Below are positions 11,367-51,651 of a stretch of 64,000 nt of DNA, piece after piece. Each line of letters begins with the position of its first letter. Positions within the stretch are counted from its first letter, which is position 1. The notes under the pieces are model-generated. The model saw nothing but the letters and a program-made list of their open reading frames with translations, had not been told where the DNA came from and did no database searches. The stretch covers positions 248,001 through 312,000 of the forward strand of contig NZ_JSFH01000009.1 of assembly GCF_000784835.1 (NCBI RefSeq), written 5' to 3'. The position numbers and the translations under genes were made by a program. The stretch comes from Thermotoga sp. Mc24. GTDB lineage: Bacteria > Thermotogota > Thermotogae > Thermotogales > Thermotogaceae.

Positions 11367-12353
11367 GTGGCCTCCATCAAAGATGTAGCAAAACTCGCTG
11401 GTGTTTCTATAGCAACCGTCTCACGCGTGATAAACGGTTACAACAACGTCTCGGAAGAGACGAGAAAAAGAGTAATCGACGCCATCAGAAAACTCAACTA
11501 TCACCCTGTGTACGCTGTGAAGGGTACTGTTTTAAAGAGAACCATCGGAGTTCTCGTTCCCAATTTCGGGGGCTTTCACTACAACGAGATATTGACGGGC
11601 ATAGAAAAAGAAGCGATAAAGAGAGACTTCACTCTCATGATTTCAACGACACTCCACAGGACCTCTGTGGAGCTGGAAAGGCTGGAGGTTTTCTTTGCAA
11701 AAAGGGTGGATGGTATCATAGTCTGCTCGTCAAAGAAGGACGAAGAACAACTCGAAAGATTGATAAAGAGCGCCATTCCAGTCGTTGTTGTGGATAGAGA
11801 AGAACCAGAGATCCGGATTGACAACGTTGGCATCGATAACTACGCCGCTGGAAGGATGTGTGCGAAGTACCTTCTGAGCAAGGGCCACAAGAAAGTTTTG
11901 CTTTTGAAGGGAAGAAAGGATATCTATTCTTTCTCTGACAGAGAAAGAGGCTTCATTGACTACAGCACGAGACACGGAATAGAGGTGAAAGTCACACCGT
12001 GCGGTTATTTCGCTGAACACGGTTACCACGCGGTGGAAAGGTACCTGAAAAAACACGGCGGGGATTTCACTGCGATCTTTGCAATAAACGACCTTTCGGC
12101 CTTTGGCGCGCTCAAGGCACTACACGATCTCGGTGTATCAGTTCCCGATGAAGTTTCTGTCATGGGATTCGACGACGACCCCATATCGAGCTACACTATT
12201 CCTCCACTCACCACGGTGAGGCAACCGAGGGAAGAGATGGGAAGAGTAGCCTTTGAGATTCTTTACGAGAGGCTTTCCGGAAAAAAAGGTGTTGCAAGAA
12301 GAGTCGTTCTGCCCATTGAGATCATCGAAAGAGAATCCGTGAAACAATTATAA
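11367..12353 (+). CDS. LacI-family transcriptional regulator
   Basis: 328 residues. The N-terminal LacI helix-turn-helix ([22 protein letters not shown]) and hinge are followed by a periplasmic-binding-protein-like effector domain ending in [24 protein letters not shown] 11367 starts one base after the ATPase stop, so it is the last gene of the transporter operon. From memory, the T. maritima orthologue (TM1218) is called CelR and is linked to beta-glucan genes, which would allow this transporter to answer to cello- as well as mannooligosaccharides. No clear LacI palindrome was found next to it. Confidence 0.88.
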
Positions 12354-17278: not shown

Positions 17279-17728
17279 TCACCACCTCACCCAGAATACA
17301 AGAAGTAGAGTCACGACAACCCAGAAAGTGTAAGCCGAGGAGGAAGGTTCGAAGAACCAGTTGTGTATCCATTCTCCGGCGTCGTGGAACAGTTTTCCGA
17401 ACATTTTGAGGAGTTTCTCCCACGATGGATGTTTTTCATACATTCTTTCGAAACCCGCGTAGAATTTCGTGTTGTAGTGATAGAGATCTGGATTGTATAT
17501 GAACTCTCCGCTTGTGTAGATGTTGATGGGCGTTCCCTCCTCCCTGTGAGGTGCCAGAAGATCCACCTTCCTTGGCCTTGGGAAGAGAGAGTAAAGGATG
17601 TAGGCAACAATGAAGCCCACAAGAAATAGACCAAAGACGAGCACGGGATTCCAGCTTCCCGCGAATCCCTTCACAAGCCAGTTCTCCGGATCAGATATTT
17701 TGAAGGAAGGCGTGACATTCAAATCCAC
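17279..17728 (-). pseudogene. C-terminal part of MbxH' antiporter-like subunit, out of frame with its gene
   Basis: 150 codons from a possible GTG 17728 (VDLNVTPSF...) with two hydrophobic segments (residues about 23-45 and the last 20) around a hydrophilic stretch with an amphipathic region (KLLKMFGKLFHDAGEWIHNWF). Read with one A removed from the A7 run at 17740-17734, it joins the upstream ORF smoothly (...PFPILQTIEKIRVDLNVTPSF...) to give one 627-residue MbxH'/NuoL-like protein whose end would be the lateral helix. No convincing Shine-Dalgarno precedes GTG 17728, so independent translation is doubtful. Confidence 0.7.
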
Positions 17729-19163
17729 TCTGATTTTTTTCGATCGTCTGGAGGATGGGGAAGGGCCACACACCAAGAAAGAAACTGATGAGAACAAGAA
17801 GAACCATGGGTGTCAGCATCACAGCGGGGGCCTCTTTAACGTCCCTGTACTTTCTAGGAAGCTGTCCCAGAAACACCCCTGCGAGTGGCCTGAAGACATA
17901 AAGGAAAGATCCTATCGATCCAAAGAAAGTCAAGAAAGCTGTTATGAACATACCTTTCCTGACCAGTGCCTGATAGATCATCCACTTCGATATGAAACCG
18001 CTCATTGGAGGAATTCCGGCAAGAGAGATGATGGAAAAGAGATAAGCGAGGAAAGTAACAGGCATTTTGTGGATCAGACCACCCATTTCGCTGATCTTCT
18101 GTGTCTTTGTTCTGTAGATGACCGCAGCGAAAGCCATGAATATAACCGCAGAGGCAACGGCGTGGTTGAAAATATGAAACATTCCTCCTTCGAAACCCAG
18201 TGGATCCATGGTGCCGATTCCTATCAGGATGTATCCTCCGTTCGCAACCGAGGAATAAGCCATGAGAATCTTCATATCATCCTGCTTTATCGCCATGAGC
18301 GTTCCTATTACAATCGACACGTTTCCAAGAACGATGAGAATGTAGTTTGGAAGAGGAATTCCTGAATAAACGGTGGCTTCTGAGAAGACTTTCAAGGAAG
18401 GTATAACGGAGAGAACGAGTAAAAAGATGTAGTTTCCGAGTTTGATGAACTGTCCGGAAAGTACTGAAGAAAACGCATTTGGTGCAAGACCATGAGTTTC
18501 TCTAAGCCAGATGTGTAGTGGAAATATACCACTTTTCGCTATACCAGCTGCACTCAAAAGCAAAAAAAAAACGGCTATTTTGAAACCTATCGAAGTGTCA
18601 TTGAGCATACCCTGTGCTATGCCGTGTATGCTCAGTGTTCCATACCTTTGATACGCGAGGAACGCTCCATAGATGAAAGCGTACGTTCCCACAGCGTTCA
18701 TGACCGCGTACACAACAACTGCTCTTCGCGCTCCTTTCTTCTCCATGGGAACGATCAGTAGTGAAGAGAGGACTGCTACTTCCCAGAAGATGTAAAGTGC
18801 GATGAGGTCAGCAGCCATGAAAACACCGAGTGATCCCGCCGTTACCATGAGCAGGAACATATTGTAGCTTGCCCGATACTTTTGAGTCTCGAGCCACTTC
18901 GTAGAAAAGAGCATCACAGATACAATCACCAGAAGACTGACAAAAGAGAAATAAAAAGATACGTTTGTCCATTCGAACTGGATATTTAAACCGAACAGAT
19001 CCAACTTCTCAAAAGTGCTCACCTTCAATGTGAAGATGTACAGAATGGTGAAAAGCCCTGCCAGAAAATTCAGAAACGCTCCTGTTTTCAAGCTTATCTT
19101 CGAGACGAAGTAGATGAAAACGGAAAGTGTGAGGAGAACTAATGGTAGAAGACCCATTGCCAC
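17691..19163 (-). CDS. MbxH'/NuoL-like antiporter subunit (truncated at an A7 tract)
   Basis: Proton/sodium-translocating antiporter-like subunit (NuoL/M/N, MrpD family) with about 14 hydrophobic segments. The core motif has charged membrane residues (ALYIFWEVAVLSSLLI; AKSGIFPLHIWLRETHGLAP; ILMAYSSVANGGYI). GTG 19163 has GGGAGGG 7 bases upstream and follows the previous stop by 1 base. After ...WPFPILQTIEK the frame runs past an A7 run into NQSGFECHAFLQNI and stops, while the expected C-terminal lateral helix lies in another frame at 17279-17728. The combined span is 3n+1, so loss of one A would restore a full-length gene. Confidence 0.85.
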   Translation of the reverse strand: MAMGLLPLVLLTLSVFIYFVSKISLKTGAFLNFLAGLFTILYIFTLKVSTFEKLDLFGLNIQFEWTNVSFYFSFVSLLVIVSVMLFSTKWLETQKYRASYNMFLLMVTAGSLGVFMAADLIALYIFWEVAVLSSLLIVPMEKKGARRAVVVYAVMNAVGTYAFIYGAFLAYQRYGTLSIHGIAQGMLNDTSIGFKIAVFFLLLSAAGIAKSGIFPLHIWLRETHGLAPNAFSSVLSGQFIKLGNYIFLLVLSVIPSLKVFSEATVYSGIPLPNYILIVLGNVSIVIGTLMAIKQDDMKILMAYSSVANGGYILIGIGTMDPLGFEGGMFHIFNHAVASAVIFMAFAAVIYRTKTQKISEMGGLIHKMPVTFLAYLFSIISLAGIPPMSGFISKWMIYQALVRKGMFITAFLTFFGSIGSFLYVFRPLAGVFLGQLPRKYRDVKEAPAVMLTPMVLLVLISFFLGVWPFPILQTIEKNQSGFECHAFLQNI

Positions 19164-19164
19164 G

Positions 19165-20565
19165 TCACATCCCTCCCTTCACCGCAGAAAAGACACCACT
19201 CACATAGCTTCCTGTATCCAGAAGGGCTTTTGCCATCTTTTGTGTTCCTTCAAGAAACATATCAGGGTCCAGAAAGACGACAACTAGAAGGATCGCAAGG
19301 GCAAAGGAGAACAACTCGATCGTGAGAGGTACTTTCGATTTTTCCCCAACGGTTTCTTCTTCGAACCAGAGTTTCACGTTCCATCTGATCACATATCCAA
19401 CCTCGATGACCGTTGTGATGAGAAGCACAGCCGGAAACAGGAAATCTTTCTCTGAGAAAGCTTCCATAATCATTCTGATTTTGCTCTGAAAGCCTGCGAA
19501 CATCGGAAATCCCACCAGAGAAAACGTGGCCATGCTGAAAGAAATTCCAATCAATTTGTGTTTTCTGAAAACTCCATTCAGATCTCTGTATCTGTGAATC
19601 AGAAAACCTGCCACGAGAAAGATCACGAACTTTGCTATAACATCGTTCGTGAGATGAAAATACGCAAGATTCAAGGCATTTTCCGTTCCCTTAGATATCA
19701 TCGCAGTCACAACTCCGGTTTGCGCGACGCTCGAATAAGCGAAAGCCCTCAACAGTCTGGACTCTCTGAGTGCCGCCATCCCACCGGTCAGGATCGTAAC
19801 GAGGGAGAGGACGTACAGAGTGTTCAATCCACTGCCGTGAAATACCGTTCCAAAGAGTCTTCCGAGCATGTAAAGAACAGCGAACGAAACGGCCGTTCCG
19901 AGAACGATTGAAGAGATCTCGTTTCCACCGTAAACTCCAGGGACCCATCCGTTCAGCGGGAACAGTTTCGCCTCAACTCCAAGACCGATCGTGTAAAGCA
20001 TAGTCACCGCAAGTAGAGAGCTTCCAGAAAGTCCCACCATCGCGATGTGAGCCATATTCAAACTTCCCACAGCGCTGTAAGCAAAGATCGTCGCCAGAAG
20101 ATAGAACGATCCACCAACACCGCCGAGTATCAGGTATTTGTAAGCGTTGTAGAAGTTTTCTCTCTTCGCAGCTATCGTGACCGCTGTTATCGTGATTATT
20201 TCCATGAGGACGAACGAGTTGAAGAGATCTCCCATCAGAACGAATCCATTCGTGGCCCCTAGAAGGAGCATGAGAGAGGTTTCGTATCCTTTCTTTGTTT
20301 CCACTGGCAGAAACGAAACCATTAAAAAGATGAGGTTCACAATCAGAACAGCGTAAAAACTAGCATCGTCCAGAACGAGGTTTATACCAAACGGCGGTTT
20401 CCAGTTTCCCAAGGCATGAATCTCCACGACGCCCGGAAACCACTCGCTGAGAACTACGATCACGTTGAACAGAGTCACCAGCGAGAACAGAACCCCCAAC
20501 GTCTTTTTCCAGAAGAGCGAGATGAAGGCCGTGAGGAGTGGTACAGCCACGAGCAGACTTATCAT
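19165..20565 (-). CDS. mbxH: MbxH/MrpD-like antiporter subunit
   Basis: 466 residues, about 14 membrane segments and the NuoN/MrpD pattern. Acidic and lysine residues within helices are visible in LFNSFVLMEIITITAVT, VEAKLFPLNGWVPGVYGG and LLRAFAYSSVAQTGVV. It is the ion channel of the Mrp-like module, coupled to electron transfer by the NuoH-like subunit. ATG 20565 follows GGGAGTG and overlaps the upstream stop by 4 bases. The frame is intact. Confidence 0.9.
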   Translation of the reverse strand: MISLLVAVPLLTAFISLFWKKTLGVLFSLVTLFNVIVVLSEWFPGVVEIHALGNWKPPFGINLVLDDASFYAVLIVNLIFLMVSFLPVETKKGYETSLMLLLGATNGFVLMGDLFNSFVLMEIITITAVTIAAKRENFYNAYKYLILGGVGGSFYLLATIFAYSAVGSLNMAHIAMVGLSGSSLLAVTMLYTIGLGVEAKLFPLNGWVPGVYGGNEISSIVLGTAVSFAVLYMLGRLFGTVFHGSGLNTLYVLSLVTILTGGMAALRESRLLRAFAYSSVAQTGVVTAMISKGTENALNLAYFHLTNDVIAKFVIFLVAGFLIHRYRDLNGVFRKHKLIGISFSMATFSLVGFPMFAGFQSKIRMIMEAFSEKDFLFPAVLLITTVIEVGYVIRWNVKLWFEEETVGEKSKVPLTIELFSFALAILLVVVFLDPDMFLEGTQKMAKALLDTGSYVSGVFSAVKGGM

Positions 20566-20900
20566 TCTTTCACTCCCTTCATCTCTTCGAGATCAAGTGA
20601 GGAGTGTCTTTCTTTGATCCGAACGAGAAGAGAAGCTCCGAGTGCCAGCACACCAACACCTATGACGATCGCTGTGAGAACGAGAGCTTGTGGTAGAGGG
20701 TCAACGAAGTTCAGCGAGAAGTTTGTGACTTTATCCGTGTATATGGGAGCGTTTCCTTCCTTGTAACCAAGCGCTATTACGAACAGGTTAACAGCCGTAT
20801 CGATAATTGTGAGTGAGACAAGATGTTTGAAGAGATTCTTCTGCGTAAGCAAGCCGTAAATTCCTATTCCCACGAGAAGAATGGATATCACGTAGATCAT
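20562..20900 (-). CDS. mbxG: MbxG/MrpC (NuoK-like) subunit
   Basis: 112 residues with three hydrophobic helices, typical of MrpC/NuoK. The motif DPLPQALVLTAIVIGVGVLAL is the MrpC signature helix. It overlaps the next gene by 4 bases and is part of the Mrp-type membrane arm. Confidence 0.9.
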   Translation of the reverse strand: MIYVISILLVGIGIYGLLTQKNLFKHLVSLTIIDTAVNLFVIALGYKEGNAPIYTDKVTNFSLNFVDPLPQALVLTAIVIGVGVLALGASLLVRIKERHSSLDLEEMKGVKE

Positions 20901-20906
20901 CTCGTA

Positions 20907-21500
20907 TCACTCTCCCTCTCGGTGTATCTCTGATATGACTCCGGAGAGTTCCGAGCCGACTTTGAGACCGATGATGATGTAAACAACGGGAACTACACCG
21001 GCACTGAAGAGATCTCCTACTCTTCCTGTAGACAGAAAGTTGTAAAGGAAAGCACCGCCGGTGATCAGACCAATCAATCCCACAAGAACGTAGAGAGCAC
21101 CCATCAATCCTTCGAGGAGCTTTGCTCTTCCTTCGTTCAATGTGAATTCTTCGTTTGAGAGATATAAAAGCAGAATCGCTGCGGCTATGACGGTACCTCC
21201 GGGAAATCCGCCAGCAGGTGAGAGATGGCCGTGAACAAACATGTAAACACCGAACATCAGGATCAAAGGCAAAAGGATGCCTGTACTCACCTTGAGAATG
21301 AGATTTGGCTCTCTTCCGTATTTCATCCTCCTGCTTCCTCGAAGGATCGTTCCCACACCGATTGCAGCAGCAAGAAGCATAGTCACTTCTCCCAAAGTGT
21401 CGAAAGATCTGTAGTTGACAACGATCGACGTCACCACGTTGACACTTCCATCTTCTAAGTTCGATTCGCCGTATATTCTTCTTTCAGAAGGTACCTGCAA
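20907..21500 (-). CDS. mbxF: MbxF (MrpA-C-terminal/MrpB-like) subunit, N-terminus lost behind an in-frame stop
   Basis: The core reads VNVVTSIVVNYRSFDTLGE (the MbhE/MrpA C-terminal type motif) fused to an MrpB-type domain (FVHGHLSPAGGFPGGTVIAA). The listed start, TTG 21500, is only the first possible start after an in-frame TGA at 21515-21513. The same frame continues upstream to ATG 21671 with a membrane helix, so the ancestral gene probably ran 21671 to 20907. The Shine-Dalgarno before TTG 21500 is weak (AAAGGA, short spacing). Confidence 0.8.
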   Translation of the reverse strand: MQVPSERRIYGESNLEDGSVNVVTSIVVNYRSFDTLGEVTMLLAAAIGVGTILRGSRRMKYGREPNLILKVSTGILLPLILMFGVYMFVHGHLSPAGGFPGGTVIAAAILLLYLSNEEFTLNEGRAKLLEGLMGALYVLVGLIGLITGGAFLYNFLSTGRVGDLFSAGVVPVVYIIIGLKVGSELSGVISEIHREGE

Positions 21501-21512
21501 GTTTCCTTTGAT

Positions 21513-21671
21513 TCATTTTCTTGAATCAACGGTGCTTACATCCTTCGCCAGGTAATGAACGGAGACTCTTCTGGAGAGATCGATCTTTCCAAATGGTTCC
21601 AAAGTGGTGATGAATGAAAGCATCACGTAGACGAACGCGACCGATATCAAAATGGCGAAAAATCTTCTCAT
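21513..21671 (-). pseudogene. N-terminal fragment of mbxF, ends at in-frame TGA
   Basis: 52 codons from ATG 21671, which overlaps the mbxD stop (ATGA). The fragment is MRRFFAILISVAFVYVML (one membrane helix), then a hydrophilic stretch SRRVSVHYLAKDVSTVDSRK and TGA. It is in the same frame as the following MbxF ORF, with only a 4-codon gap between the TGA and TTG 21500. MbhE-type proteins usually have this helix joined to the VNVVTxIVxxYRxFDTLGE motif, so this looks like the detached start of mbxF rather than a separate small gene. A natural split cannot be ruled out. Confidence 0.65.
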
Positions 21672-21910
21672 TTTTCATCATCCTTTCCCGTTTTGAAGAG
21701 TGTGATGAGAAGGACAGCCGTTGTGAGACCCGCGCCAACCGAAGCTTCCGTTATGGCAACATCTGGAGCTTTCATGATGATGAAGAGAAACACCGAAAGA
21801 AGACTAAGCGATGAGAGTGCTATGACGCTGTCCAGAATTTTTCTCGCTTCAACCGCGAAGAAGGCAGCAATCAGCATCATTCCTCCAGTCAGCCATATCA
21901 GCAGGTTCAT
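21668..21910 (-). CDS. mbxD: MbxD, small Mrp-type subunit
   Basis: 80 residues, three short hydrophobic segments and the motif APDVAITEASVGAGLTTAVL, characteristic of the MrpA-derived MbhD/MbxD subunit. ATG 21910 overlaps the upstream stop by 4 bases. The frame is intact. Confidence 0.88.
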   Translation of the reverse strand: MNLLIWLTGGMMLIAAFFAVEARKILDSVIALSSLSLLSVFLFIIMKAPDVAITEASVGAGLTTAVLLITLFKTGKDDEK

Positions 21911-22230
21911 CTTTCATCACCACCTTTGTATTCGTCGATAACCGTGCACTCACACGGTTTCACACCCGAAAGATAGGAAGCTCTGGCCAGCACAGAGCTT
22001 CCAACAGGATTTGTAAGGGCGATGAACGTGATGATAACGATGGCTTTCAGAAGAAATTCCGGTTTTGCGATACCGATTCCCAGTACAGTTGAGAAGGTTC
22101 CGAGAGTCGTGGCCTTGGTACCCGCCTGAAGTCTGTTGTAAACGTCAGACATTCCGAAAACACCGAGGCCTCCGAGAAAGTTAAAAAACGCCCCTATCGC
22201 TATCAGTACCTCTCCGATAACCTCGTTCAT
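21907..22230 (-). CDS. mbxC: MbxC/MrpG-like antiporter subunit
   Basis: 107 residues, three helices and the MrpG motif FGMSDVYNRLQAGTKATTLG. It is a membrane subunit of the Na+/H+ antiporter module. Overlapping ATGA junctions on both sides indicate translational coupling. The frame is intact. Confidence 0.9.
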   Translation of the reverse strand: MNEVIGEVLIAIGAFFNFLGGLGVFGMSDVYNRLQAGTKATTLGTFSTVLGIGIAKPEFLLKAIVIITFIALTNPVGSSVLARASYLSGVKPCECTVIDEYKGGDER

Positions 22231-22475: not shown

Positions 22476-22939
22476 TCGAACACCCCCTTGACGAGTCTCT
22501 TGAACTTTCCAGAAATGTGTCTTTCTTTCTCTTTAGTGGATTTCACTTCGATCCAGTGGACAAAGATCCTGTCGTCTTTCACATCCACACTGAGTGTTTC
22601 AGGAGTGAGGGTTATGCTGTTGGCAAGAAAGAGACGAGAAGCGTCTTTTTTCAGATTTGTTTTTACTTCAACAAAGCCCGGTTTGAGCGGAAGGCGTGGA
22701 TTCAAGACCCTTAAGGCAACATCGATGTTGGCTTTCACCATCTCTATGATGAAGATGGGAAGGAACATCACCACCTACCTGACGATCCTCAGAGGTAGTT
22801 TCGCATCGAATCTGATACCGTGGTACTTTCGAAAAATCAAAGACACAGCCAGAGAAACCACAATTCCTGCGAGCAGTTCCGAGTAGGAAAATCTGGTGAT
22901 CACAAGCTATAATATCAAACTTGTCAGAAAAACGCTCAC
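22472..22939 (-). pseudogene. mbxA: MbxA/MrpE-like subunit, interrupted by two in-frame TAG codons
   Basis: First gene of the Mbx operon. GTG 22939 follows a strong GAGGAGGTGTGAAGA site and opens MSVFLTSLIL, then TAG at 22909-22907 (codon 11). The frame continues LVITRFSYSELLAGIVVSL... to a second TAG at 22777-22775 (codon 55), then VVMFLPIFIIEMVKANIDVA and the diagnostic MrpE motif ANSITLTPETLSVDV. Both TAGs could come from TGG (Trp) by one G-to-A change. The part after the second stop (22774-22472) is an open 100-codon ORF but lacks the first two helices. Read through, the protein has normal MrpE length, about 155 residues. Confidence 0.85.
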
Positions 22940-22996
22940 TCTTCACACCTCCTCGGGATTGAAAGAGAAAGTTTTCACAATCACAACACAAGAGTA

Positions 22997-23025
22997 ATTC
23001 TACTCTTTCGAATCGTTAATGTAAA
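22997..23025 (-). promoter_or_regulatory. Promoter of the Mbx operon
   Basis: On the minus strand, -35 TTTACA (23025-23020), a 17-base spacer and -10 TAGAAT (23002-22997), about 60 bases before GTG 22939. The promoter looks intact although several genes it serves are broken. Confidence 0.65.
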
Positions 23026-23072
23026 CCTAATTAGTAGAAATAAAAATTAGCTTTGAAGAAAACCAAGATAAA

Positions 23073-23097
23073 AATTTAGACCGAAATAGTCTAAATT
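23073..23097. repeat. Perfect 9-bp inverted repeat
   Basis: AATTTAGAC (23073-23081) and GTCTAAATT (23089-23097) with a 7-base spacer CGAAATA. It lies about 50 bases upstream of the Mbx -35 and 98 bases upstream of the galactoside regulator -35. It could be an operator for an unidentified regulator. Confidence 0.5.
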
Positions 23098-23194
23098 ATG
23101 TAAATGAAACACAGAAATATCTATTTTCTGGTTATAAAAGGCGATCTCAAGAAATTATTTAGAAATAACATCGAAAATCTCCTCTGGATATCGT

Positions 23195-23230
23195 TTGACA
23201 TCACGGTAACTTTCACGGTAACGTTTACGT
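23195..23230 (+). promoter_or_regulatory. Promoter of the galactoside regulator with tandem operator half-sites
   Basis: -35 TTGACA at 23195-23200 is followed by TCACGGTAAC at 23201-23210 and again at 23213-23222 (exact 10-base direct repeat, 12-base period). The second copy is part of an imperfect LacI-type palindrome GGTAAC/GTTTAC at 23217-23228. The -10 is poor. The position implies autoregulation; the same half-site (TCACGGTA) recurs at 24393-24400. Confidence 0.6.
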
Positions 23231-23273
23231 AGAATAAGATTTCTGATTTTGTGATTCTGACATCTGGGGGTTT

Positions 23274-24281
23274 ATGACCGTGAAAAAAAAGTATGTGACA
23301 ATTAGGGACATTGCAGAAAGGGCAGGAGTTTCAATAAACACCGTTTCAAGGGCACTCAACAACAAACCCGACATCAGTGAAGAAACCAGAAGAAAGATAC
23401 TGAAAATTGCTCTAGAGCTCGGATACGTGAAAAATGCCACCGCTTCCTCTTTGAGGAGCAAGCGAACGAACATCGTGGGGGTCATCATAGCCGACAGTGC
23501 CAATCCGTTCTATGCGGAGGTCTTGAAGGGAATAGAAGCCGCCTCAAGAAAGTACGGCTATCAGATCATGCTCATGAACACCGAAAGAATCTACGAAAAT
23601 GAAGAGAAGGCTATAGAGGTGCTTCTCCAGAGAAGAGTCGATGGCCTTCTCATAACGCCTGTTCAAGACAGATCAGACGACATAAGAGTTTTAATTGAAA
23701 GAAAGGTTCCCTTCGTTATAGTCGGCAGACACTTCGAAGAGTTAGAAGTGGATGAGATCCACAGTGATGAGGTGAAGGGAGGGTATCTCGCAACCAGACA
23801 TCTCATAGAAAGAGGAAGAAAAAATATCCTCATGATCAGCGGGTATCTGTTCAAATCAGCTGCCTACATGCGACTTGAAGGATATAGAAAGGCCCTGAAA
23901 GAGTACGGAATTCCATTCAGAGAAGAAATGATCATTGAAACAGACATCGATATAGAGAGTGGATATCAAGCGATGCGGGAAGCCATTAAAAAGGGACTTG
24001 AGTTTGATGCGGTCTTCTGCTATAACGACTTACTCGCTTTCGGTGCAATGAAGGCCTTGAAAGAGCGTGGGTATCGTATACCGGAAGATGTTGCTGTTGT
24101 TGGCTATGATGATATTGTTTATTCTTCTTTTGTCTGTCCATCTCTGACAACGGTGAGGATAAAGAAGTTCGAAATGGGTTTTGAAGCGTTTAGAATGCTT
24201 CTTCAAAGATTGAAAGGACGAAGAAAGAAAAGAAAACGAGTAATCTTGGACGTGGAGCTTGTTGTGAGGGAAAGTAGTTAG
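23274..24281 (+). CDS. galR: LacI-family regulator of the galactoside operon
   Basis: 335 residues. The LacI-type HTH (IRDIAERAGVSINTVSRALNN) and hinge (NATASSLRSKRTN) are followed by a sugar-binding domain ending in VVGYDDIVYSSFVCPSLTTVR. The start is ATG 23274 after GGGGG. Operator-like sites sharing TCACGGTA lie before this gene and before the transporter gene, both overlapping promoters. Placed at the head of the galactose genes, it is the probable repressor, corresponding to T. maritima TM1200 (GalR, from memory). Confidence 0.85.
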   Translation: MTVKKKYVTIRDIAERAGVSINTVSRALNNKPDISEETRRKILKIALELGYVKNATASSLRSKRTNIVGVIIADSANPFYAEVLKGIEAASRKYGYQIMLMNTERIYENEEKAIEVLLQRRVDGLLITPVQDRSDDIRVLIERKVPFVIVGRHFEELEVDEIHSDEVKGGYLATRHLIERGRKNILMISGYLFKSAAYMRLEGYRKALKEYGIPFREEMIIETDIDIESGYQAMREAIKKGLEFDAVFCYNDLLAFGAMKALKERGYRIPEDVAVVGYDDIVYSSFVCPSLTTVRIKKFEMGFEAFRMLLQRLKGRRKKRKRVILDVELVVRESS

Positions 24282-24374
24282 TCTTTTTTGATGATTTCAG
24301 GTGATTATTTCGAATTAGAAGGATTTATTTGTGACTAATTTTTTCTTTCTCCTTTCTTCAACCTTTTCTTATTC

Positions 24375-24404
24375 TTGACTTTACGTGAACGTTCACGGTA
24401 TCAT
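24375..24404 (+). promoter_or_regulatory. Promoter of the galactoside operon with a LacI-type operator in the spacer
   Basis: -35 TTGACT (24375-24380) and -10 TATCAT (24399-24404), 18 bases apart. The spacer contains a perfect 14-base palindrome CGTGAACGTTCACG (24384-24397), a classic LacI/GalR operator with a central CG. Binding there would exclude RNA polymerase. Confidence 0.8.
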
Positions 24405-24446
24405 TCAAGTGGCAAAGCCAGATACTCTGTTGGGGAGGGTGGTACT

Positions 24447-25673
24447 ATGAAATTCAGGTTTTTCCTTGTAACACTTCTTGTAGTTTTGAGTGTTTTCGTA
24501 CTGGCCAAAGAAAAGATTGTAGTGAACTCCTACATTTCAGACCCAGCTCCGAGAATAGTCTTTGCCGAACTCGTTAAGATGTTCGAAGAGAAGCACCCTG
24601 AGTATGATGTGGTTGTCAACACGTTCCCACACGAGGACTTCAAAACACTCCTCAGAACCTGGTTGAATTCAGACGAAGCCCCAGATGTTGTTACATGGTT
24701 TGCAGGAGAAAGAATGAGGTACTTCGCCAGCAAAGGATTGCTCGAATCAATGGATAACATCTTCGCTCCTCAGACTTTCGAAGATTACTTCCCTGCATCT
24801 TTCAGAAGCGCATGTGAATATGATGGAAAAATCTATTTCATTCCTCAGAGTTGGTACTGGTGGGGAGTGTACTACAGGAAGTCTGTTTTTGAAAAATACG
24901 GAATAACACCACCAAGAACATGGGACGAATTCTTGAAGGTTTGTGAAACACTCAAAGAGAATGGGATCACTCCAATAACCATTGGAACAAAGTATCTCTG
25001 GCCTGCAGCAGGATGGTTCGATTATCTTGATCTCAGAGTGAATGGCCTCGATTTCCATTTGAAACTCACGGCCGGTGAGATTCCTTACACCGATTCCAGA
25101 GTCAAAAAGGTGTTCGAGTACTGGAAACAACTCGTTGAAAAAGGTTATTTCCTAGAAAATCACTCTTCATACACGTGGCAGGAGGCGGCAGCTTTCCTCT
25201 TCAGAGGGGAAGCAGGAATGTATCTCATCGGTCAATTCATAAAAGACGTTGCACCAGCTTCTGTGAAAGATGATCTCGATTTCTTCAGATTCCCGGTTAT
25301 AAACCCCGAAATCGGTCTGTACGAAGAAACGCCAATAGATGGATTCATGATACCGGCAAAAGCCAAAAACAAAGAAGGAGCGAAGGTGTTCCTCAGATTC
25401 ATTTCTGAAAAGGATATTCAAGAGTACTTCGCAGCAAAACTTGGAAGACTTGCAGCGAACAAGAACGCAAAACCAGCTGATGAACATGCTGCGAAGGGAC
25501 TGAAGATGATCCTCGAGTCAAATGGAGTAGCTCAGTTCTACGACAGGGACACGAACCCGGAAATGGCAACAGCTGGCATGAACGGTTTTGTCGAGTTCAT
25601 GATCTATCCTGAAAAGCTCGACCAGATCTTGGAAAATCTCGAGAAAGAAAGACAGAGAATATTCGGAAAATAA
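24447..25673 (+). CDS. Sugar-binding protein of a MalE-type ABC transporter (SBP family 1)
   Basis: 408-residue periplasmic receptor with signal peptide MKFRFFLVTLLVVLSVFVLA. The SBP_bac_1 fold is seen from SYISDPAPRIVFAELVKMFEEKHPEYDVVV, the mid motif WYWWGVYYRKSVFEKYGITPP and the C-terminal AKNKEGAKVFLRFI. ATG 24447 follows GGGAGGG; the longer TTG-initiated frame from 24375 starts in the promoter. Its place in the galactose operon suggests galactosides such as lactose or galactooligosaccharides, though the ligand cannot be read. It belongs to a different family from the dipeptide-type transporter whose ATPase remnant lies downstream. Confidence 0.88.
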   Translation: MKFRFFLVTLLVVLSVFVLAKEKIVVNSYISDPAPRIVFAELVKMFEEKHPEYDVVVNTFPHEDFKTLLRTWLNSDEAPDVVTWFAGERMRYFASKGLLESMDNIFAPQTFEDYFPASFRSACEYDGKIYFIPQSWYWWGVYYRKSVFEKYGITPPRTWDEFLKVCETLKENGITPITIGTKYLWPAAGWFDYLDLRVNGLDFHLKLTAGEIPYTDSRVKKVFEYWKQLVEKGYFLENHSSYTWQEAAAFLFRGEAGMYLIGQFIKDVAPASVKDDLDFFRFPVINPEIGLYEETPIDGFMIPAKAKNKEGAKVFLRFISEKDIQEYFAAKLGRLAANKNAKPADEHAAKGLKMILESNGVAQFYDRDTNPEMATAGMNGFVEFMIYPEKLDQILENLEKERQRIFGK

Positions 25674-25728: not shown

Positions 25729-26610
25729 GTGACGAAGAAAAAGTGGTGGGTTCCATACGTGTTCCTGGCATTACCTCTTGTTCTTTATTTCATATGGGTT
25801 ATATTTCCCATATTTCAAACCATAGTGTTGAGCTTCACCAACTGGGACAGTGTCAGTCCTACCTTCAGATTCGTCGGATGTGAAAACTACAAACAACTTT
25901 TCAATGATCAATACTTTTGGCTATCCCTGAAAAACAACATAAAATGGCTCGTCTCATTCGTTGCAATCGCTATTCCACTCGGTCTTGGGATGGCGATGTT
26001 GCTGGATCAAAAATTTCCAGGGAACAAGGTTTTCAAAACGTTCATTTATTTACCGATGACTTTGTCTTTTGTCGTGATTGGTCAGATATGGTCGTGGATT
26101 TTAGAGCCAAGAAATGGGGTTTTGAACGAATTCCTGAGAGCGATAGGGCTTGATAGTCTTTCGAAACCATGGTTGAGCGATCCGAAAATTGTTACTTGGG
26201 CGTTGATAATGGCAGCGCTCTGGAGGCAGATAGCGTACGCGATGGTGTTGTTCTTGGCAGGGCTAAAAAATGTTTCAACAGAGCTTGTGGAGGCTGCATA
26301 CGTTGATGGAGCGAACTCGTGGCAGAGATTCTGGTACGTCATCCTTCCAGCTTTGAGACCGGCGATGGTGATAGCGGTGACCGTGAATATAATCGATTCT
26401 CTGAGGGCTTTTGACATAGTCTATGTGATGACCAGAGGTGGCCCTTTCTACTCATCTAGCGTGATGGCCAATTACATGTACATACAATCCTTCCACAACT
26501 ACAGGATGGGTTATGGATCTGCGATAGCTGTCATACAATTTCTCATAACACTCGGATTCATAATAATCTATCTACTTTACACACTCAAAAAGGAGGAAGA
26601 AATCGCATGA
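25729..26610 (+). CDS. ABC sugar permease, MalF type
   Basis: 293 residues with six hydrophobic segments. N-terminal PYVFLALPLVLYFIWVIFPI and the cytoplasmic EAA loop VEAAYVDGANSWQRFWYVILP identify the MalF/UgpA family. GTG 25729 follows AAGGGAGGAG. It partners the next permease. No ATPase of the MalK type is in the window, so it presumably uses a shared MsmK/MalK-like ATPase encoded elsewhere. GC is lower than in the flanking galactosidase gene. Confidence 0.88.
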   Translation: MTKKKWWVPYVFLALPLVLYFIWVIFPIFQTIVLSFTNWDSVSPTFRFVGCENYKQLFNDQYFWLSLKNNIKWLVSFVAIAIPLGLGMAMLLDQKFPGNKVFKTFIYLPMTLSFVVIGQIWSWILEPRNGVLNEFLRAIGLDSLSKPWLSDPKIVTWALIMAALWRQIAYAMVLFLAGLKNVSTELVEAAYVDGANSWQRFWYVILPALRPAMVIAVTVNIIDSLRAFDIVYVMTRGGPFYSSSVMANYMYIQSFHNYRMGYGSAIAVIQFLITLGFIIIYLLYTLKKEEEIA

Positions 26611-27443
26611 ACAAGAAGAAAATCTTCAAAGCCATACTTTTTTACGGCTTGGGAATGTTACTTGTTATGATATGGATGCTCCCTTTTGTGATTTCTGTTT
26701 TCACATCACTAAAATCAATGGATGAGGTTTTGTTAGGAATAAAGTGGTGGCTTCCTCCTAAGAAACCAACTTTTGAGAACTACGCTATAGCATGGAGAGA
26801 AGCCAACATGGAAAGGTATTTCTTGAACACCCTTATTATCACTGGATTTTCCGTGGTAGGGGCCCTCTTTGTTTCGAGTTTGAGTGCTTTTGCTCTTTCG
26901 TGGTACGAGTTCAAACTCAAAAAGCCTCTGCTTATAATGTTCGTTTCCGGTATGCTGATACCGTTCCAAATGCTTATGATACCGGTTTACAGCTTTTCTG
27001 TAAATACAGGTCTTTACAATACTTACTGGGGTGTGATTCTCTTTCACATAGCTTTCCAAACCGGTTTCTGTACCTTCTTTCTGAGAAATTTCATGGTAAC
27101 GATCCCCAAGAGTCTTTTCGAAGCAGCGAAGATCGATGGAGCAGGAGATTTTCTCATATACAGGAAAATCATCATGCCTCTTGTTGTTCCAGCTCTTGCA
27201 GCGCTTGGTATTCTTGAATTTACTTGGATATGGAACGATTATCTCTGGTCTCTTGTTCTCATACAGAGCGATTCGTTGAAGCCTGTTACACTTGGATTGA
27301 CAACGCTTCAAGGACAGTGGGTGACGAGCTGGAATGTTATAGCTGCTGGTGCCAATTTAGCCGCTCTGGTGCCAATAATTGTCTTCTTGATCTTCCAGCG
27401 TTACTTCATAGAGGGTCTAACCCTTGGAAGTGTGAAAGGATAA
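26607..27443 (+). CDS. ABC sugar permease, MalG type
   Basis: 278 residues and six helices. The EAA loop EAAKIDGAGDFLIYRKIIMP and C-terminal FQRYFIEGLTLGSVKG are typical of the MalG/UgpE family. ATG 26607 overlaps the previous stop by 4 bases. GC is low (22/60 in line 26641) against 35/60 in the adjoining GH42 gene (line 27661), consistent with a separate origin for the transporter cassette. Confidence 0.88.
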   Translation: MNKKKIFKAILFYGLGMLLVMIWMLPFVISVFTSLKSMDEVLLGIKWWLPPKKPTFENYAIAWREANMERYFLNTLIITGFSVVGALFVSSLSAFALSWYEFKLKKPLLIMFVSGMLIPFQMLMIPVYSFSVNTGLYNTYWGVILFHIAFQTGFCTFFLRNFMVTIPKSLFEAAKIDGAGDFLIYRKIIMPLVVPALAALGILEFTWIWNDYLWSLVLIQSDSLKPVTLGLTTLQGQWVTSWNVIAAGANLAALVPIIVFLIFQRYFIEGLTLGSVKG

Positions 27444-27461
27444 CAAAAAGGGGTGTTTCGG

Positions 27462-29411
27462 ATGCTAGGGGTTTGTTACTATCCTGAACACTGGGGAATA
27501 GAGAAAGTGGAAGAAGATTTCAAAAGGATGAAAGAGCTCGGAATGGAGTACGTGAGGATTGGGGAGTTCGCCTGGAGCAGGATAGAACCTGAGCGTGGAA
27601 AGTTCAACTGGGACTGGCTCGACAAAACCCTGGAACTGGCTGAGAAAATGGGGCTCAAGATCGTGCTGGGAACGCCCACCGCTACACCTCCGAAATGGCT
27701 CATCGATGAACATCCGGAGATCCTTCCCGTTGATAAAGATGGCAGGATGAAAAATTTTGGTTCCAGAAGACATTACTGTTTCTCTAGCCCTGTCTATAGA
27801 GAGGAAGTGAAAAGAATCGTTACTATCATAGCGAAAAGGTACGGGAAACACCCGGCGGTTGTCGGCTGGCAGACGGACAACGAGTACGGCTGTCACGATA
27901 CAGTGAGGTGCTACTGTCCGAGGTGCAAAAAAGCCTTCCAAAAATGGCTGGAAAGAAAGTACGAGGGCGACATAAAGAAATTGAATGAAGCGTGGGGAAC
28001 AGTGTTCTGGAGCCAGGAGTATCGATCCTTCAACGAAATAGAGCTTCCGAATCTCACCCCTGCCGACCCGAATCCGTCGCATCTTCTCGATTACTACAGG
28101 TTCGCTTCCGACCAGGTGGTGGAATTCAACAGGATTCAGGTGGAGATCATAAGGGAGTATTCGCCGGAAAGATTCATCACACACAATTTCATGTCCGGTT
28201 TCACAGATTTTGATCATTACAAACTCTCGAAAGACCTGGATTTCGCGACCTGGGACAATTACCCGCTCGGACACACCCTCGTTTTTCTGAGAATGAAGGG
28301 TGAGACAAAAAATCCGTTCGACAGAGTGGGACACCCGGACATCATCTCATTCTCGCACGATCTGTACCGGGGAGTGGGCAGAGGAAGATTCTGGGTGATG
28401 GAACAGCAAGCAGGACCTGTGAACTGGGCTCTTTACAATCTCTGGCCTGCCAAAGGAGCAGTGAGACTCTGGACCTGGCAGGCGTTCGCACATGGCGCAG
28501 AAGTGGTCTCCTACTTCAGATGGAGGCAGGCACCTTTTGCGCAGGAGCAGATGCACTCTGGACTTCTGGCACCGGATTCAGCACCTTTCCCTGGGTACCA
28601 CGAGGTAAAGCAGGTTTTCGAAGAGCTAAAAAACATCGATATCAAAGAGCCGGTAAAGAGTGAAGTGGCGCTTGTCTTCGATTACGAAACGGCGTGGGTC
28701 TTCTCCATACAACCGCACGGCAAAGGGGTGAACTACCTCGATCTTGTCTTCAGATTCTACAGTGCCCTCAGAAGACTTGGTCTGAACGTGGATATAGTAG
28801 CTCCCGGATCTTCACTGGATGGATACAAAATGGTCGTTGTTCCAAGCCTTGCCATTGTGAGGGAAGAGGTTCTGGACATGTTCAAAAGATACGGCGGTCT
28901 TCTCGTATTTGGCCCAAGAAGCGGAAGCAAAACAGAGACATTCCAGATACCACCAGAAATGCCTCCGGGTCTTCTCAAGGAGCTCATACCCGTTGAAGTG
29001 AGACAGGTTGAAAGTCTTGGAGATAACGTTGAAACGCTTGTCTGGAGCGGTAAGGAATATCCTGTCTCGATATGGAGAGAGGATGTGGACCCCACCATCA
29101 CGGAAGTTATTGCAAGATTCAAAGATGGTTTTGGAGCCATCTTCCGGAAAGATAACGTGTTTTACCTTTCTTTCTGGCCCGACAGAGAATTTCTTGTAGA
29201 TTTCTTTGAGAAATTCTCAAAAGAAGTGGGAATTGAAATAAAAAGACTGCCAGAAGGAGTACGCATTCAAAGGAGAGGTGAATATGTTTTCGCTTTCAAT
29301 TTCACCTCTGAGGAGGTAGATTTAGAAATACCAGCGAAGGTTCAGATAGTTCTAGGAGATCAAAAGATTCCTCCCTACGGACTGCTGCTGTGGAAGGAAA
29401 CCGAACACTGA
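27462..29411 (+). CDS. Beta-galactosidase, GH42
   Basis: 649-residue cytoplasmic GH42 enzyme hydrolysing short beta-galactosides. It opens MLGVCYYPEHWG. The acid/base is Glu in QTDNEYGCHD and the nucleophile is Glu in RFWVMEQQ. A possible structural zinc site is CHDTVRCYCPRCKKAF. ATG 27462 has AAAAGGGG 8 bases upstream; GTG 27453 is less likely. It matches T. maritima TM1195, from memory. After the nucleophile the sequence reads EQQAGPVNWALYN, where I recall Pro rather than Ala and Leu in T. maritima. The frame is intact, but the relaxed residues may matter given the decayed genes downstream. Confidence 0.92.
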   Translation: MLGVCYYPEHWGIEKVEEDFKRMKELGMEYVRIGEFAWSRIEPERGKFNWDWLDKTLELAEKMGLKIVLGTPTATPPKWLIDEHPEILPVDKDGRMKNFGSRRHYCFSSPVYREEVKRIVTIIAKRYGKHPAVVGWQTDNEYGCHDTVRCYCPRCKKAFQKWLERKYEGDIKKLNEAWGTVFWSQEYRSFNEIELPNLTPADPNPSHLLDYYRFASDQVVEFNRIQVEIIREYSPERFITHNFMSGFTDFDHYKLSKDLDFATWDNYPLGHTLVFLRMKGETKNPFDRVGHPDIISFSHDLYRGVGRGRFWVMEQQAGPVNWALYNLWPAKGAVRLWTWQAFAHGAEVVSYFRWRQAPFAQEQMHSGLLAPDSAPFPGYHEVKQVFEELKNIDIKEPVKSEVALVFDYETAWVFSIQPHGKGVNYLDLVFRFYSALRRLGLNVDIVAPGSSLDGYKMVVVPSLAIVREEVLDMFKRYGGLLVFGPRSGSKTETFQIPPEMPPGLLKELIPVEVRQVESLGDNVETLVWSGKEYPVSIWREDVDPTITEVIARFKDGFGAIFRKDNVFYLSFWPDREFLVDFFEKFSKEVGIEIKRLPEGVRIQRRGEYVFAFNFTSEEVDLEIPAKVQIVLGDQKIPPYGLLLWKETEH

Positions 29412-29425
29412 GGGGTATCCAGTAG

Positions 29426-33555
<4,130 letters not shown>

Positions 33556-33670
33556 TTCCTCCCTCCAAGAAGGAAGATCTGGTGTTCAAAGTGAAGGGAT
33601 TAAAGAAGGGTGAACATCTGATACATACGAATCTGAACACAAGAAAAACCATCTATGTGAGGTGATCTGT

Positions 33671-35329
33671 GTGGAAATATTCGGAAAAACCTTCAGAGAG
33701 GGAAGATTCGTTCTTGAAGAGAAAAACTTCACGGTTGAATTCGCGGTGGAGAAGATACACCTTGGCTGGAAGATCTCCGGCAGGGTGAAGGGAGATCCGG
33801 GAAGGCTTGAGGTTCTTCGAACGGAAGCACCGGAAAAGCTACTTGTGAACAACTGGCAGTCCTGGGGACCGTGCAGGGTGGTAGATGCCTCCTCTTTCAA
33901 ACCACCTGAGATAGATCCGAACTGGAGATACACCGCTTCGGTGGTGCCTGATGTACTTGAAAGGAACCTCCAGAGCGAATATTTCGTGGCTGAAGAAGGA
34001 AGGGTGTACGGCTTTTTGAGCTCGAAAATTGCTCATCCTTTCTTCGCTGTGGAAGATGGGGAACTTGTGGCTTATCTTGAATACTTCGATGTCGAGTTCG
34101 ACGAATTTGTCCCTCTTGAACCTCTTGTTGTACTCGAAGATCCCAACACTTCCCTTCTTCTAGAAAAATACGCGGAACTTGTTGGAATGGAGAACAATGC
34201 AAGAGTTCCAAAACACACACCCACTGGATGGTGCAGCTGGTATCACTATTTCCTCGATCTCACCTGGGAAGAAACCATCAAGAATCTGGAACTTGCGAAG
34301 AGTTTCCCGTTCGAAGTTTTCCAGATAGACGACGCTTACGAAAAGGACATAGGCGACTGGCTCGTAACAAAAGGAGACTTTCCATCAGTGGAAGAGATGG
34401 CAAAAGTTATAGAGGAAAACGGATTCATCCCGGGTATATGGACCGCCCCGTTCAGCGTTTCTGAAACTTCCGATGTATTCAACGAACATCCGGACTGGGT
34501 TGTGAAAGAAAACGGAAAGCCAAAGATGGCTTACAGAAACTGGAACAAAAAGATATACGCCCTCGATCTTTCGAACGATGAGGTTCTGAACTGGCTCTTC
34601 AATCTCTTCGCATCTTTGAGAAGGATGGGCTACAGATACTTCAAGATCGACTTTCTCTTCGCGGGTGCTGTTCCAGGAGAGAGAAAAGAGAGCATGACAC
34701 CGATTCAGGCGTTTAGAAAAGGAATGGAGACGATCAGAAAAGCGGTGGGAGAAGATTCTTTCATTCTCGGATGCGGTTCTCCCCTTTTTCCCGCGGTGGG
34801 ATACGTCGACGGCATGAGGATAGGACCTGATACCACACCGTTTTGGGGAGAACATATAGAAGACAACGGAGCTCCCGCTGCAAAATGGGCGCTGAGAAAC
34901 ACCGTAACAAGGTACTTCATGCACGACAGACTGTGGCTGAACGACCCTGATTGTCTGATACTGAGAGAGGAGAAAACGGATCTTACACCAGAAGAAAGAG
35001 AACTCTACTCGTACACATGTGGGGTACTCGACAACATGATCATAGAAAGCGATGATCTCTCGCTCGTCAAGGATCACGGAAAAAAGGTTTTGAGCGAAAC
35101 ACTCGAACTCCTCGGTGGAAAACCACGGGTTCAAAACATCATGTCGGAGGATCTGAGATACGAGATCGTCTCGTCTGGTACTCTCTCAGGAAACGTCAAG
35201 ATCGTGGTCGATCTAAACAGCAGGGAGTACCACCTGGAAAAAGAAGGAAAGTCCTCCTTGAGAAAAAGAATAGTCAAAAAAGAAGACGGGAGAAACTTCT
35301 ACTTTTACGAAGAGGGTGAAAGAGAATGA
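33671..35329 (+). CDS. galA: Alpha-galactosidase, GH36
   Basis: 552 residues, the length of the well-studied T. maritima GalA (TM1192). It releases galactose from raffinose-type or galactomannan oligosaccharides in the cytoplasm. The nucleophile is Asp in [10 protein letters not shown] and the acid/base is Asp in [11 protein letters not shown]. Further substrate-site motifs are WCSWYHYF and [17 protein letters not shown] 33671 is chosen over GTG 33662 because GAGGTGATC lies just before it. It starts 6 bases after the restored lacZ stop and overlaps galT. The frame is intact. Confidence 0.95.
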
Positions 35330-36282
35330 TGGAACTCAGGTACAATCCGCTCACAGATGAATGGGTAATCGTTTCGGCGGCCACACAGAAAAGGCCGGTG
35401 CAGCCATCGAAAACTGAGTGTCCCATCTGTGTTGGAGGCCTCGAACTTCCCGAAGAGTACGACCTTGTCACTTTCGAGAACAGATATCCCTCTCTGAAAA
35501 AAGATCCACCTCCTGTGGACTGGAAAGAAAAGGGACCTTTCAGGAAAGAAGAGTCCCGAGGTGTCTGTGAGGTGGTCGTCTACACCTCGGATCACAACAC
35601 AGCCCTTCCTGGCATGCCTTTGAAGCAGATAGGAAAGCTCGTTGAGATGTGGGTGGACAGAACAAGGGACCTTTCTCAGCACACCTTTGTGAAATATATC
35701 TTTATCTTCGAAAACCGTGGAAAAGAAGTCGGTGCCTCCCTTCCACACCCACACGGTCAAATATACGCGTTTCCCTTCCTTCCAAAGAGAATAGAAGTGA
35801 AGATGAGTGCGATGAGGAAATGGTATGAAGAGAAAAGGGAGTGCCCTATCTGTGAGATCTTGGAGAACGAAGGAGAGGAGAGAAAGGTTTACGAGACGAA
35901 GTATTTCCTCGCTCTCGTTCCTTTCTATGCACGCTTCCCGTACGAGGTGCATATCTATCCAAAGAGGCACGTGAGCACTCTTCTGGAGTTCTCGAAGGAA
36001 GAAAAGAAAGAGTTCGCAAAAGTTCTCAAGGTGGTGACTGCAAAGTACGACAAACTATTTGATCAGGAATTCCCCTATATGATGATGTTCTTCCAGGCAC
36101 CTTTCAACGGAGAGGATGTGTCTCACTTTTTCCACTTCCACGTGGAGTTCAATCCACCGAAGCGAGACAAAGATAAACTGAAGTGGATGGCAAGCGTTGA
36201 GACGGGTACATGGGCGTTCATAAACCCTGTCGTTCCCGAAGAAGCAGCGAAACAGCTCAGAGAGACGGAGGTGGAGATATGA
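35326..36282 (+). CDS. galT: Galactose-1-phosphate uridylyltransferase
   Basis: 318-residue HIT-superfamily Leloir enzyme converting galactose-1-phosphate and UDP-glucose to UDP-galactose and glucose-1-phosphate. The active-site histidine motif is [13 protein letters not shown], with metal-site cysteine pairs CPIC near residues 27 and 180. ATG 35326 overlaps the galA stop (ATGA). It is coupled to galK downstream. No galE is in the window. Confidence 0.93.
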
Positions 36283-37331
36283 AAGTGAAGGCACCAGGAA
36301 GAATAAACATCATCGGGGAGCATACTGACTACAACGACGGTTACGTTCTGCCGTTTGCGGTGAACAGGTACGTGTTTCTCTCGATCGAAGGCTCAGATAG
36401 ATTCATCTTCCACTCAGAGAACATGAACGAAACGGTGGAGATGGAAAGGATAGAAAAACTCAACAAATGGACGGATTACATCTCGGGGGTCATTGCTTCT
36501 TTTGAGAAAAGAGGCTACAGGATGTCTCCTGTTAAAATCTCCGTTTCTTCCAATCTTCCCATGGGAGCGGGTCTTTCCAGTTCCGCTGCTCTCGAGGTGG
36601 CAAGCGCTTACGCGATTTCAGAGTACTTAGGTTTCAACGTTCCAAAACTTGAACTCGTGAAGATTGCTCGTGAAGCCGAAGTGGAGTTCGTGGGAGTCAG
36701 GTGTGGCATCATGGATCAGTTCACTTCCGCTTTTGGAAGGAAAGACCACGCGATCTTTCTGGATACGATGACTCTCGAGTACGAGTACGTTCCTTTGAAA
36801 CTGAAGGGTTACGAGATCAACCTCGTCGATTCGAATGTGAAACACGCACTCTCCTCTTCTGAGTACAACAAAAGAAGACAGGAGTGTGAAGAGGTACTGA
36901 AGGTGCTTGGGAAAAAGAGCTTTCGAGAAGTGACAAAAGAAGATCTCGAAAAGCTTTCAGGCACTCTGAGAAAGCGGACCCGGCACGTGATCGAAGAAAA
37001 CGAAAGGGTTCTAAAGAGCGTTCAGGCTTTGAAAGAAGGAGATTTTGAAACCCTTGGAAAACTGCTCTTTTCCTCTCATGAGAGTCTCAAAGACCTGTAC
37101 GAAGTTTCCTGTGAGGAAACGGATTTCATCGTGGATTATTTGAGAGGAAAAGAAGGTATCCTCGGCGCGAGGATGGTCGGCGGCGGATTCGGTGGAGGAG
37201 TTATCGTTCTTTCGAAGAAAGGGGCTTTTGGGAAAGTAAAAGAAGAGCTGGCAGAGTCTTATAGGAAGCGTTTTGGAATAGATCTCACCTTCCACGAAAT
37301 AGAGAGTTCAGACGGTGTTCAAAAAATCTAA
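36279..37331 (+). CDS. galK: Galactokinase
   Basis: 350-residue GHMP kinase phosphorylating galactose released by the upstream galactosidases. GHMP motifs: GRINIIGEHTDYNDGYVLP, ATP loop PMGAGLSSSAALE and C-terminal GARMVGGGFGGG; catalytic Asp in CGIMDQF. ATG 36279 overlaps galT by 4 bases; the upstream part of the open frame lies inside galT. It is the last gene of the operon and is followed by a terminator. Confidence 0.95.
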   Translation: MKVKAPGRINIIGEHTDYNDGYVLPFAVNRYVFLSIEGSDRFIFHSENMNETVEMERIEKLNKWTDYISGVIASFEKRGYRMSPVKISVSSNLPMGAGLSSSAALEVASAYAISEYLGFNVPKLELVKIAREAEVEFVGVRCGIMDQFTSAFGRKDHAIFLDTMTLEYEYVPLKLKGYEINLVDSNVKHALSSSEYNKRRQECEEVLKVLGKKSFREVTKEDLEKLSGTLRKRTRHVIEENERVLKSVQALKEGDFETLGKLLFSSHESLKDLYEVSCEETDFIVDYLRGKEGILGARMVGGGFGGGVIVLSKKGAFGKVKEELAESYRKRFGIDLTFHEIESSDGVQKI

Positions 37332-51609: not shown

Positions 51610-51651
51610 TCATACCTTCAGTATTTCTTTTCATACCTTCAGTATTTCTTT
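51610..51651. repeat. 21-bp perfect tandem duplication at the hcp stop codon
   Basis: 51610-51630 and 51631-51651 are identical. On the minus strand each copy encodes KEILKV plus TGA, so the coding end and stop of hcp are duplicated head to tail without changing the protein. Confidence 0.95.

Follow-up and report, generated by a model that had tools for sequence, protein, structure and literature searches.

The window, by which we mean the whole 64-kb stretch of DNA analysed here, belongs to a genome of 1.82 Mb in 12 contigs and carries a cluster, running in one direction, of a LacI-family gene, an ABC transporter, GH42 and GH2 beta-galactosidases, an alpha-galactosidase, galT and galK. The genes of the cluster and the features of its two promoters, O1 and O2 being the upstream and downstream candidate operator of each, are listed below.

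23195..23200, + strand: -35-like TTGACA of the galR promoter, read from the sequence; TTGAC is kept in 6/6 Thermotoga-genus galR/ganE promoters
23204..23217, + strand: candidate operator O1 of the galR promoter, CGGTAACTTTCACG, with the off-consensus centre CT
23216..23229, + strand: candidate operator O2 of the galR promoter, CGGTAACGTTTACG, an imperfect palindrome with central CG
23219..23224, + strand: candidate -10 TAACGT of galR, inside O2, read from the sequence; spacer about 17-18 bp
23230-23235 and 23236-23241, + strand: alternative galR -10 candidates, TAGAAT and TAAGAT, respectively
23274..24281, + strand: galR, LacI-family repressor, 335 aa (Pfam LacI HTH and sugar-binding domains; near-relative genes 80-95% identical)
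24375..24380, + strand: -35 TTGACT of the transporter promoter (promoter scan)
24384..24397, + strand: candidate operator O1 of the transporter promoter, CGTGAACGTTCACG, a perfect 14-bp palindrome with central CG
24396..24409, + strand: weak second candidate operator (O2) of the transporter promoter, CGGTATCATTCAAG, 12 bp downstream of O1 and around the -10 box; recovered by the genome search with 2 mismatches
24399..24404, + strand: -10 TATCAT of the transporter promoter (promoter scan)
24447..25673, + strand: ABC transporter solute-binding protein (SBP_bac_1, NCBIfam)
25729..26610, + strand: ABC permease 1
26607..27443, + strand: ABC permease 2
27453..29411, + strand: lacA, GH42 beta-galactosidase (Glyco_hydro_42)
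30406..33555, + strand: lacZ, GH2 beta-galactosidase (NCBIfam LacZ-type models)
33662..35329, + strand: galA, alpha-galactosidase (GalA_N/Melibiase)
35326..36282, + strand: galT (GalP_UDP_transf)
36282..37331, + strand: galK (galactokinase domains)

The product of 23274-24281 scored above the cut-offs for PF00356 and PF00532/PF13377, which places it in the LacI/GalR family, and its 80-95% identity to proteins of near relatives together with its gene linkage point to a Thermotogales GalR orthologue, an assignment made by identity and neighbourhood. In the relatives, galR is linked with lacA, lacZ, galA, galT and galK in various sets, and alignment with them suggests that translation perhaps starts at a GTG at 23280. 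By predicted gene content and regulator identity, the regulator and cluster match the published Thermotogales GalR regulon. In T. maritima, this regulon comprises 15 genes in two operons that are up on galactose, with the genes of both transporters, ganEFG included, and lacA and ganA rising 8- to 20-fold and galT, galK and galR about 4-fold (PMC3750489). The likeness, within the text portions of that paper covered here, extends to a LacI-family GalR, a transporter, beta-galactosidase and gal genes, autoregulation and induction by galactose, whereas the window differs in having no transporter/galactanase operon upstream of galR. Overlapping operators are not mentioned in those text portions and the word "tandem" is absent from the main text.

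Between the two beta-galactosidase genes, at 29390-30394, lies a remnant ltpK-like gene (oligopeptide-type ABC ATPase), which is in three pieces and two frames with two in-frame stops here and forms a single open frame in the relative L035; no other gene of the second transporter to which the remnant belongs was seen from galR to galK in the window. Antiporter-type genes (Proton_antipo_M) occupy about 17691-22230 on the opposite strand, upstream of galR, and a second LacI-family regulator is found at 11370-12335, adjoining oligopeptide-type ABC ATPase genes.

Operator-like sites at the galR and transporter promoters

At the transporter promoter, TTGACT-N18-TATCAT, which was among three promoter-like hits with 10/12 matches in 22900-24500, the perfect palindrome fills positions 4-17 of the 18-bp spacer, as the first-pass annotation of this DNA had described. 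That annotation had also pointed to a 10-base tandem repeat with a 12-base period and to an imperfect palindrome by the regulator promoter, and both are present, the repeat as two copies of TCACGGTAAC (23201-23210 and 23213-23222) upstream of the LacI-family gene and the palindrome at 23216-23229. The perfect site at 24384-24397 and this imperfect one both have the form of a LacI-type operator, namely an even palindrome with central CG at a promoter, and 23204-23217 departs from it with CT at the centre. The repeat had been considered unlike a simple LacI site; although it is real, it is, as read from the sequence, two putative LacI-type operators that overlap, the centre of O2 standing 12 bp downstream of that of O1 with 2 bp common to both, and the transporter promoter has a weaker pair. 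The half-site that was said to be shared, TCACGGTA, is the junction formed by the right arm of O1 and the left arm of O2; it occurs three times on the + strand and never on the - strand of the 64 kb, in every case at the galR and transporter promoters.

Both promoters share the register TTGAC[A/T]-N3-[14-bp operator]-G-TA, such that O1 of galR and the palindrome are placed alike relative to TTGACA and TTGACT, respectively, and across six galR/ganE promoters of the genus the gap between the -35-like element and the operator is 3 bases, or 2 in one relative (L039). Promoters of T. maritima are sigma-70-like with spacers centred on 17 bp, according to the portions of PMC3636130 covered. The -10 partner of the galR TTGACA is not a good one, and a promoter scan of 22900-24500 reported neither this TTGACA nor any of the three -10 candidates. 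In 9/10 transporter promoters, a strong operator is followed at a 12-bp step by a weaker one lying across the -10. The window's own transporter promoter reads TCAA after the -10, and a control on unrelated promoter-like sites found T[T/C/A]AC after the -10 in 0/14, a number too small to carry weight.

Counting alone does not set these features apart. The 64 kb contain 7 perfect 14-bp palindromes versus about 4 expected (64000/4^7), and exact 10-mer repeats of period 7-30 occur at 8 separate places in the window, the galR promoter included. As both are common in the window, the palindrome count or the tandem-repeat count alone was rejected as evidence; the case for operators rests on conservation.

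Conservation of the paired sites and of the 12-bp step

The double operator was found in 6/6 genomes of the genus in which the galR/ganE promoter was recovered; the genus comprises seven genomes here, and in G041 the contig ends inside galR. Across the six, 28/37 columns of the element are invariant versus 10/49 upstream and 4/44 downstream, and a run of 21 consecutive invariant bases extends from the fifth base of O1 through O2. An overlapping LacI pair is expected to have a step of about 13 bp and to be conserved at orthologous promoters; here the step is 12 bp, is present at 6/6 promoters of the genus and recurs elsewhere.

The genes behind this element vary. In four genomes of the same genus (L035-L038) the double operator heads a transporter/galactanase operon, in which the solute-binding protein gene comes first, a GH53 galactanase gene is included (both domain-tested in L036) and galR closes the series; the 300 bp preceding galR contain no site reaching 10 matches. 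The window and L039 lack that operon here, the double operator lies directly before galR, and an Mrp antiporter/NADH dehydrogenase-type gene lies beyond the element on the other strand (in L039 by similarity). It looks like the operon was replaced or lost and its promoter left before galR. The regulatory element has been retained in front of genes that vary from lineage to lineage. Graded autoregulation, which the first-pass annotation had offered as a purpose of the repeat, does not follow because in relatives the double operator serves a galactanase/transporter operon, whose genes are among the strongly induced ones; in the four genomes the element drives structural genes and galR is last, and the proposal is thus unsupported. 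A search of the window's own genome with the L036 galactanase, run without a positive control, was empty, and the search with the L036 solute-binding protein yielded an 80% relative located on a different contig, which is taken to be a paralogous maltose-type transporter. In L039, 5516-6916 (reverse-complement coordinates) is a 69% relative of one of the window's antiporter-type genes.

Alignment of nine transporter-type promoters revealed that AACGTTCACGGTATCATT is invariant and the outer left arm variable. The alignment is without L035 and L040, the L035 site having been excluded because its -10 is gone. In L035, a perfect operator at 10677-10690 lies directly before lacA, and the -10, O2 and the usual transporter genes are gone. 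Beyond the genus, the 12-bp partner is also present in G029, whose GalR is 72% identical. In another genome (G024), three operator-like sites stand in a 12-bp series at L046 6524-6561 (reverse-complement coordinates), just upstream of a start codon and before a transporter operon that leads to galR-lacZ.

The spacing was examined in 41 regions at galR-type genes of the order by comparing the best pair score at each distance of 8-30 bp with those of 100 simulated sequences per region. The mean z was 3.62 at 12 bp, followed by 1.53 at 11 bp and 1.51 at 18 bp, values that are relative only because the motif weights were hand-set from sites of these families. The regions are not independent, given their shared ancestry, and several genomes are represented by two or three regions whose regulators are paralogous. 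The 12-bp score was reached by 0/100 simulations in 21/41 regions and by at least one simulation in 6 further regions; z at 12 bp was below 2 in 14/41, comprising regions of G008, G028, G027, G016, G013, G012, G007, G018, G021, G022 and G014 and second copies in G005, G008 and G024. According to the ORF table, 20/21 pairs lie at or upstream of a gene start, being intergenic or within an over-long 5' end of an open reading frame; the exception is G006, whose best pair falls inside galR and hence in coding sequence. The 12-bp score is ambiguous for the f2 genomes (Pseudothermotoga-like, the genus being guessed), as a single longer palindrome is another possible reading of their AACGATAACGTTATCGTT. 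With 60 decoy motifs made by permuting the arm, the maximum was 1.17 at 12 bp and 1.30 at any distance versus 2.31 for the real motif, which 0/60 matched.

To discount the two bases that a 12-bp pair has in common, a second test was limited to the non-shared bases of potential partners around 36 strong single sites. The mean z was 1.18 at -12 and 1.14 at +12, versus -0.53 to 0.45 at the other offsets to 40. When grouped (35 of the 36 sites, the second L049 site at 5221 being left out), the galR/ganE sites gave a z of 3.86 at -12 (n=6) and the transporter promoters 2.63 at +12 (n=10, one negative), and among the other sites (n=19) the top two offsets were -12 (0.96) and +12 (0.93), the next reaching 0.62. 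Part of the transporter signal at +12 could be ordinary promoter conservation, since the transporter O2 contains the -10 box.

Possible modes of GalR binding

From the sequence and the published regulon we infer GalR binding at this locus, its mode, the choice of the galR -10 and the effector in this organism. Both promoters probably are composite GalR operators, likeliest occupied by one dimer at a time in either of two registers. O1 would lie within the -35/-10 spacer, and O2, with its centre 12 bp further downstream, would overlie the -10 region, CACGGTA being the joined arms common to both. In the transporter promoter the perfect site would be O1, and O2 would be a weak one with TATCAT as its centre; at galR an O1 with an off-consensus centre would be paired with an O2 centred on CG. 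Whichever register it takes, a GalR dimer would sit on the spacer or the -10 and should therefore block RNA polymerase from the promoter, and galactose or a derivative would free GalR and thereby induce transporter-lacA-lacZ-galA-galT-galK as well as galR. Having two registers may raise local affinity and keep repression when one of them is weak. A single dimer in alternative registers appears likeliest because two recognition arms would crowd one stretch of the major groove, and it is favoured because two dimers are hard to fit, judging from the portions of PMC4052901 covered.

Two GalR dimers might instead occupy O1 and O2 together, cooperatively and in the manner of CodY, with the 12-bp step setting the contact between dimers, a reading to which we give a limited chance. 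The step does stand out across genera, as a protein-protein contact would demand, and the triple series of G024 is the best hint for co-occupancy; a fixed step could, however, also arise since the arms of a palindrome can be shared in few registers only. In the parts of the CodY study covered (PMC10415144), structures show cooperative double occupancy of overlapping palindromic sites that have a fixed step and sometimes stand three in series, but CodY is not a LacI-family protein, its 15-nt sites overlap by 6 nt, and readout is mostly of DNA shape. Known LacI-family complexes argue against the analogy, in that the overlap hits the specific contact zone and dimers that close cannot interact, as set out in the portions of PMC4052901 covered. 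That GalR dimers co-occupy strict 12-bp overlaps, sometimes three of them, in a cooperative mode structurally new to the LacI family is on balance unlikely; if true, a co-occupied composite element would do the work of distant operators and looping.

It also seems unlikely that each promoter has one functional operator (O1 at the transporter, O2 at galR), the other site being promoter sequence or a decayed duplicate. The strongest single site does differ between the two promoters, the second transporter site overlaps the -10 box, and little or no 12-bp partner is seen in 14/41 regions. However, the invariant run through O1 and O2 at galR/ganE persists in six genomes with changed flanks, and partners at 12 bp recur in other genera and families, including G029. 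Attribution of the sites to a different LacI-family regulator, such as that at 11370-12335, is quite improbable: operators of the family look alike, this second gene is 11 kb away, and a 97% identical relative of it in L035 stops about 385 bp ahead of the double operator, but published inference assigns both operons to GalR (PMC3750489, portions covered), and in G029 (L043) galR has overlapping sites in front of it and galT and galK behind it, in a 19.5-kb region in which such a second LacI gene was not found. Chance as the origin of palindrome and repeat draws on the similar counts of both features elsewhere in the window and is scarcely tenable, as conservation, promoter placement and the decoy controls contradict it for the two sites together. 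The single GalR dimer in alternative registers remains our preferred reading, and the sequence together with the published regulon context supports the initial proposal that these are matched LacI operators of the neighbouring regulator.

Overlapping LacI-family sites about 13 bp apart were described upstream of 110 operons in 2014, an example being E. coli GntR at gntKU (PMC4052901). In the portions of that work covered, the sites resemble those found here, being two palindromic LacI-type sites that overlap, favour a short step and occur at a minority of operons; the present pairs differ in their 12-bp step, in the CACGGTA common to both sites and in their position on the spacer and -10. The same portions describe such sites as hard to reconcile with known complexes. 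The regulon and the overlapping-operator arrangement are thus both already known, and recognition of overlapping pairs improves how the operators are read. A GalR from a thermophile, with two promoters that carry the conserved 12-bp pair and a naturally occurring triple in a relative, would be a convenient system for distinguishing exclusive from co-occupied registers in what is otherwise ordinary sugar-operon control.

Similar sites elsewhere in the genome

The first-pass annotation had suggested searching the genome for similar sites. Among the matches listed, GTGAACGTTCAC occurs exactly at one place in the window's own genome and CACGGTAACNTTNACG at two places, each within the galR promoter. 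The listed matches further include 8 places with a single mismatch to GTGAACGTTCAC and 10 with 1-2 mismatches to CACGGTAACNTTNACG, or 9 once the transporter promoter is set apart. All 17 further near matches among those listed lie inside open reading frames, one of them (L091) in a frame of 93 codons, below the 100-codon limit of the ORF table. No extra GalR target was accepted from these 17 and, as the next-best matches listed fall within reading frames, the galR and transporter promoters alone stand out as good at this stringency.

The E. coli gal and lac repressors use distant operators and DNA looping. The locus resembles these systems in placing a LacI-family repressor over galactoside genes and differs from them in that the 17 near matches listed are within open reading frames, weaker distant sites being possible. 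At 51610-51652 of the window, 22 bases are duplicated exactly in tandem with a period of 21.
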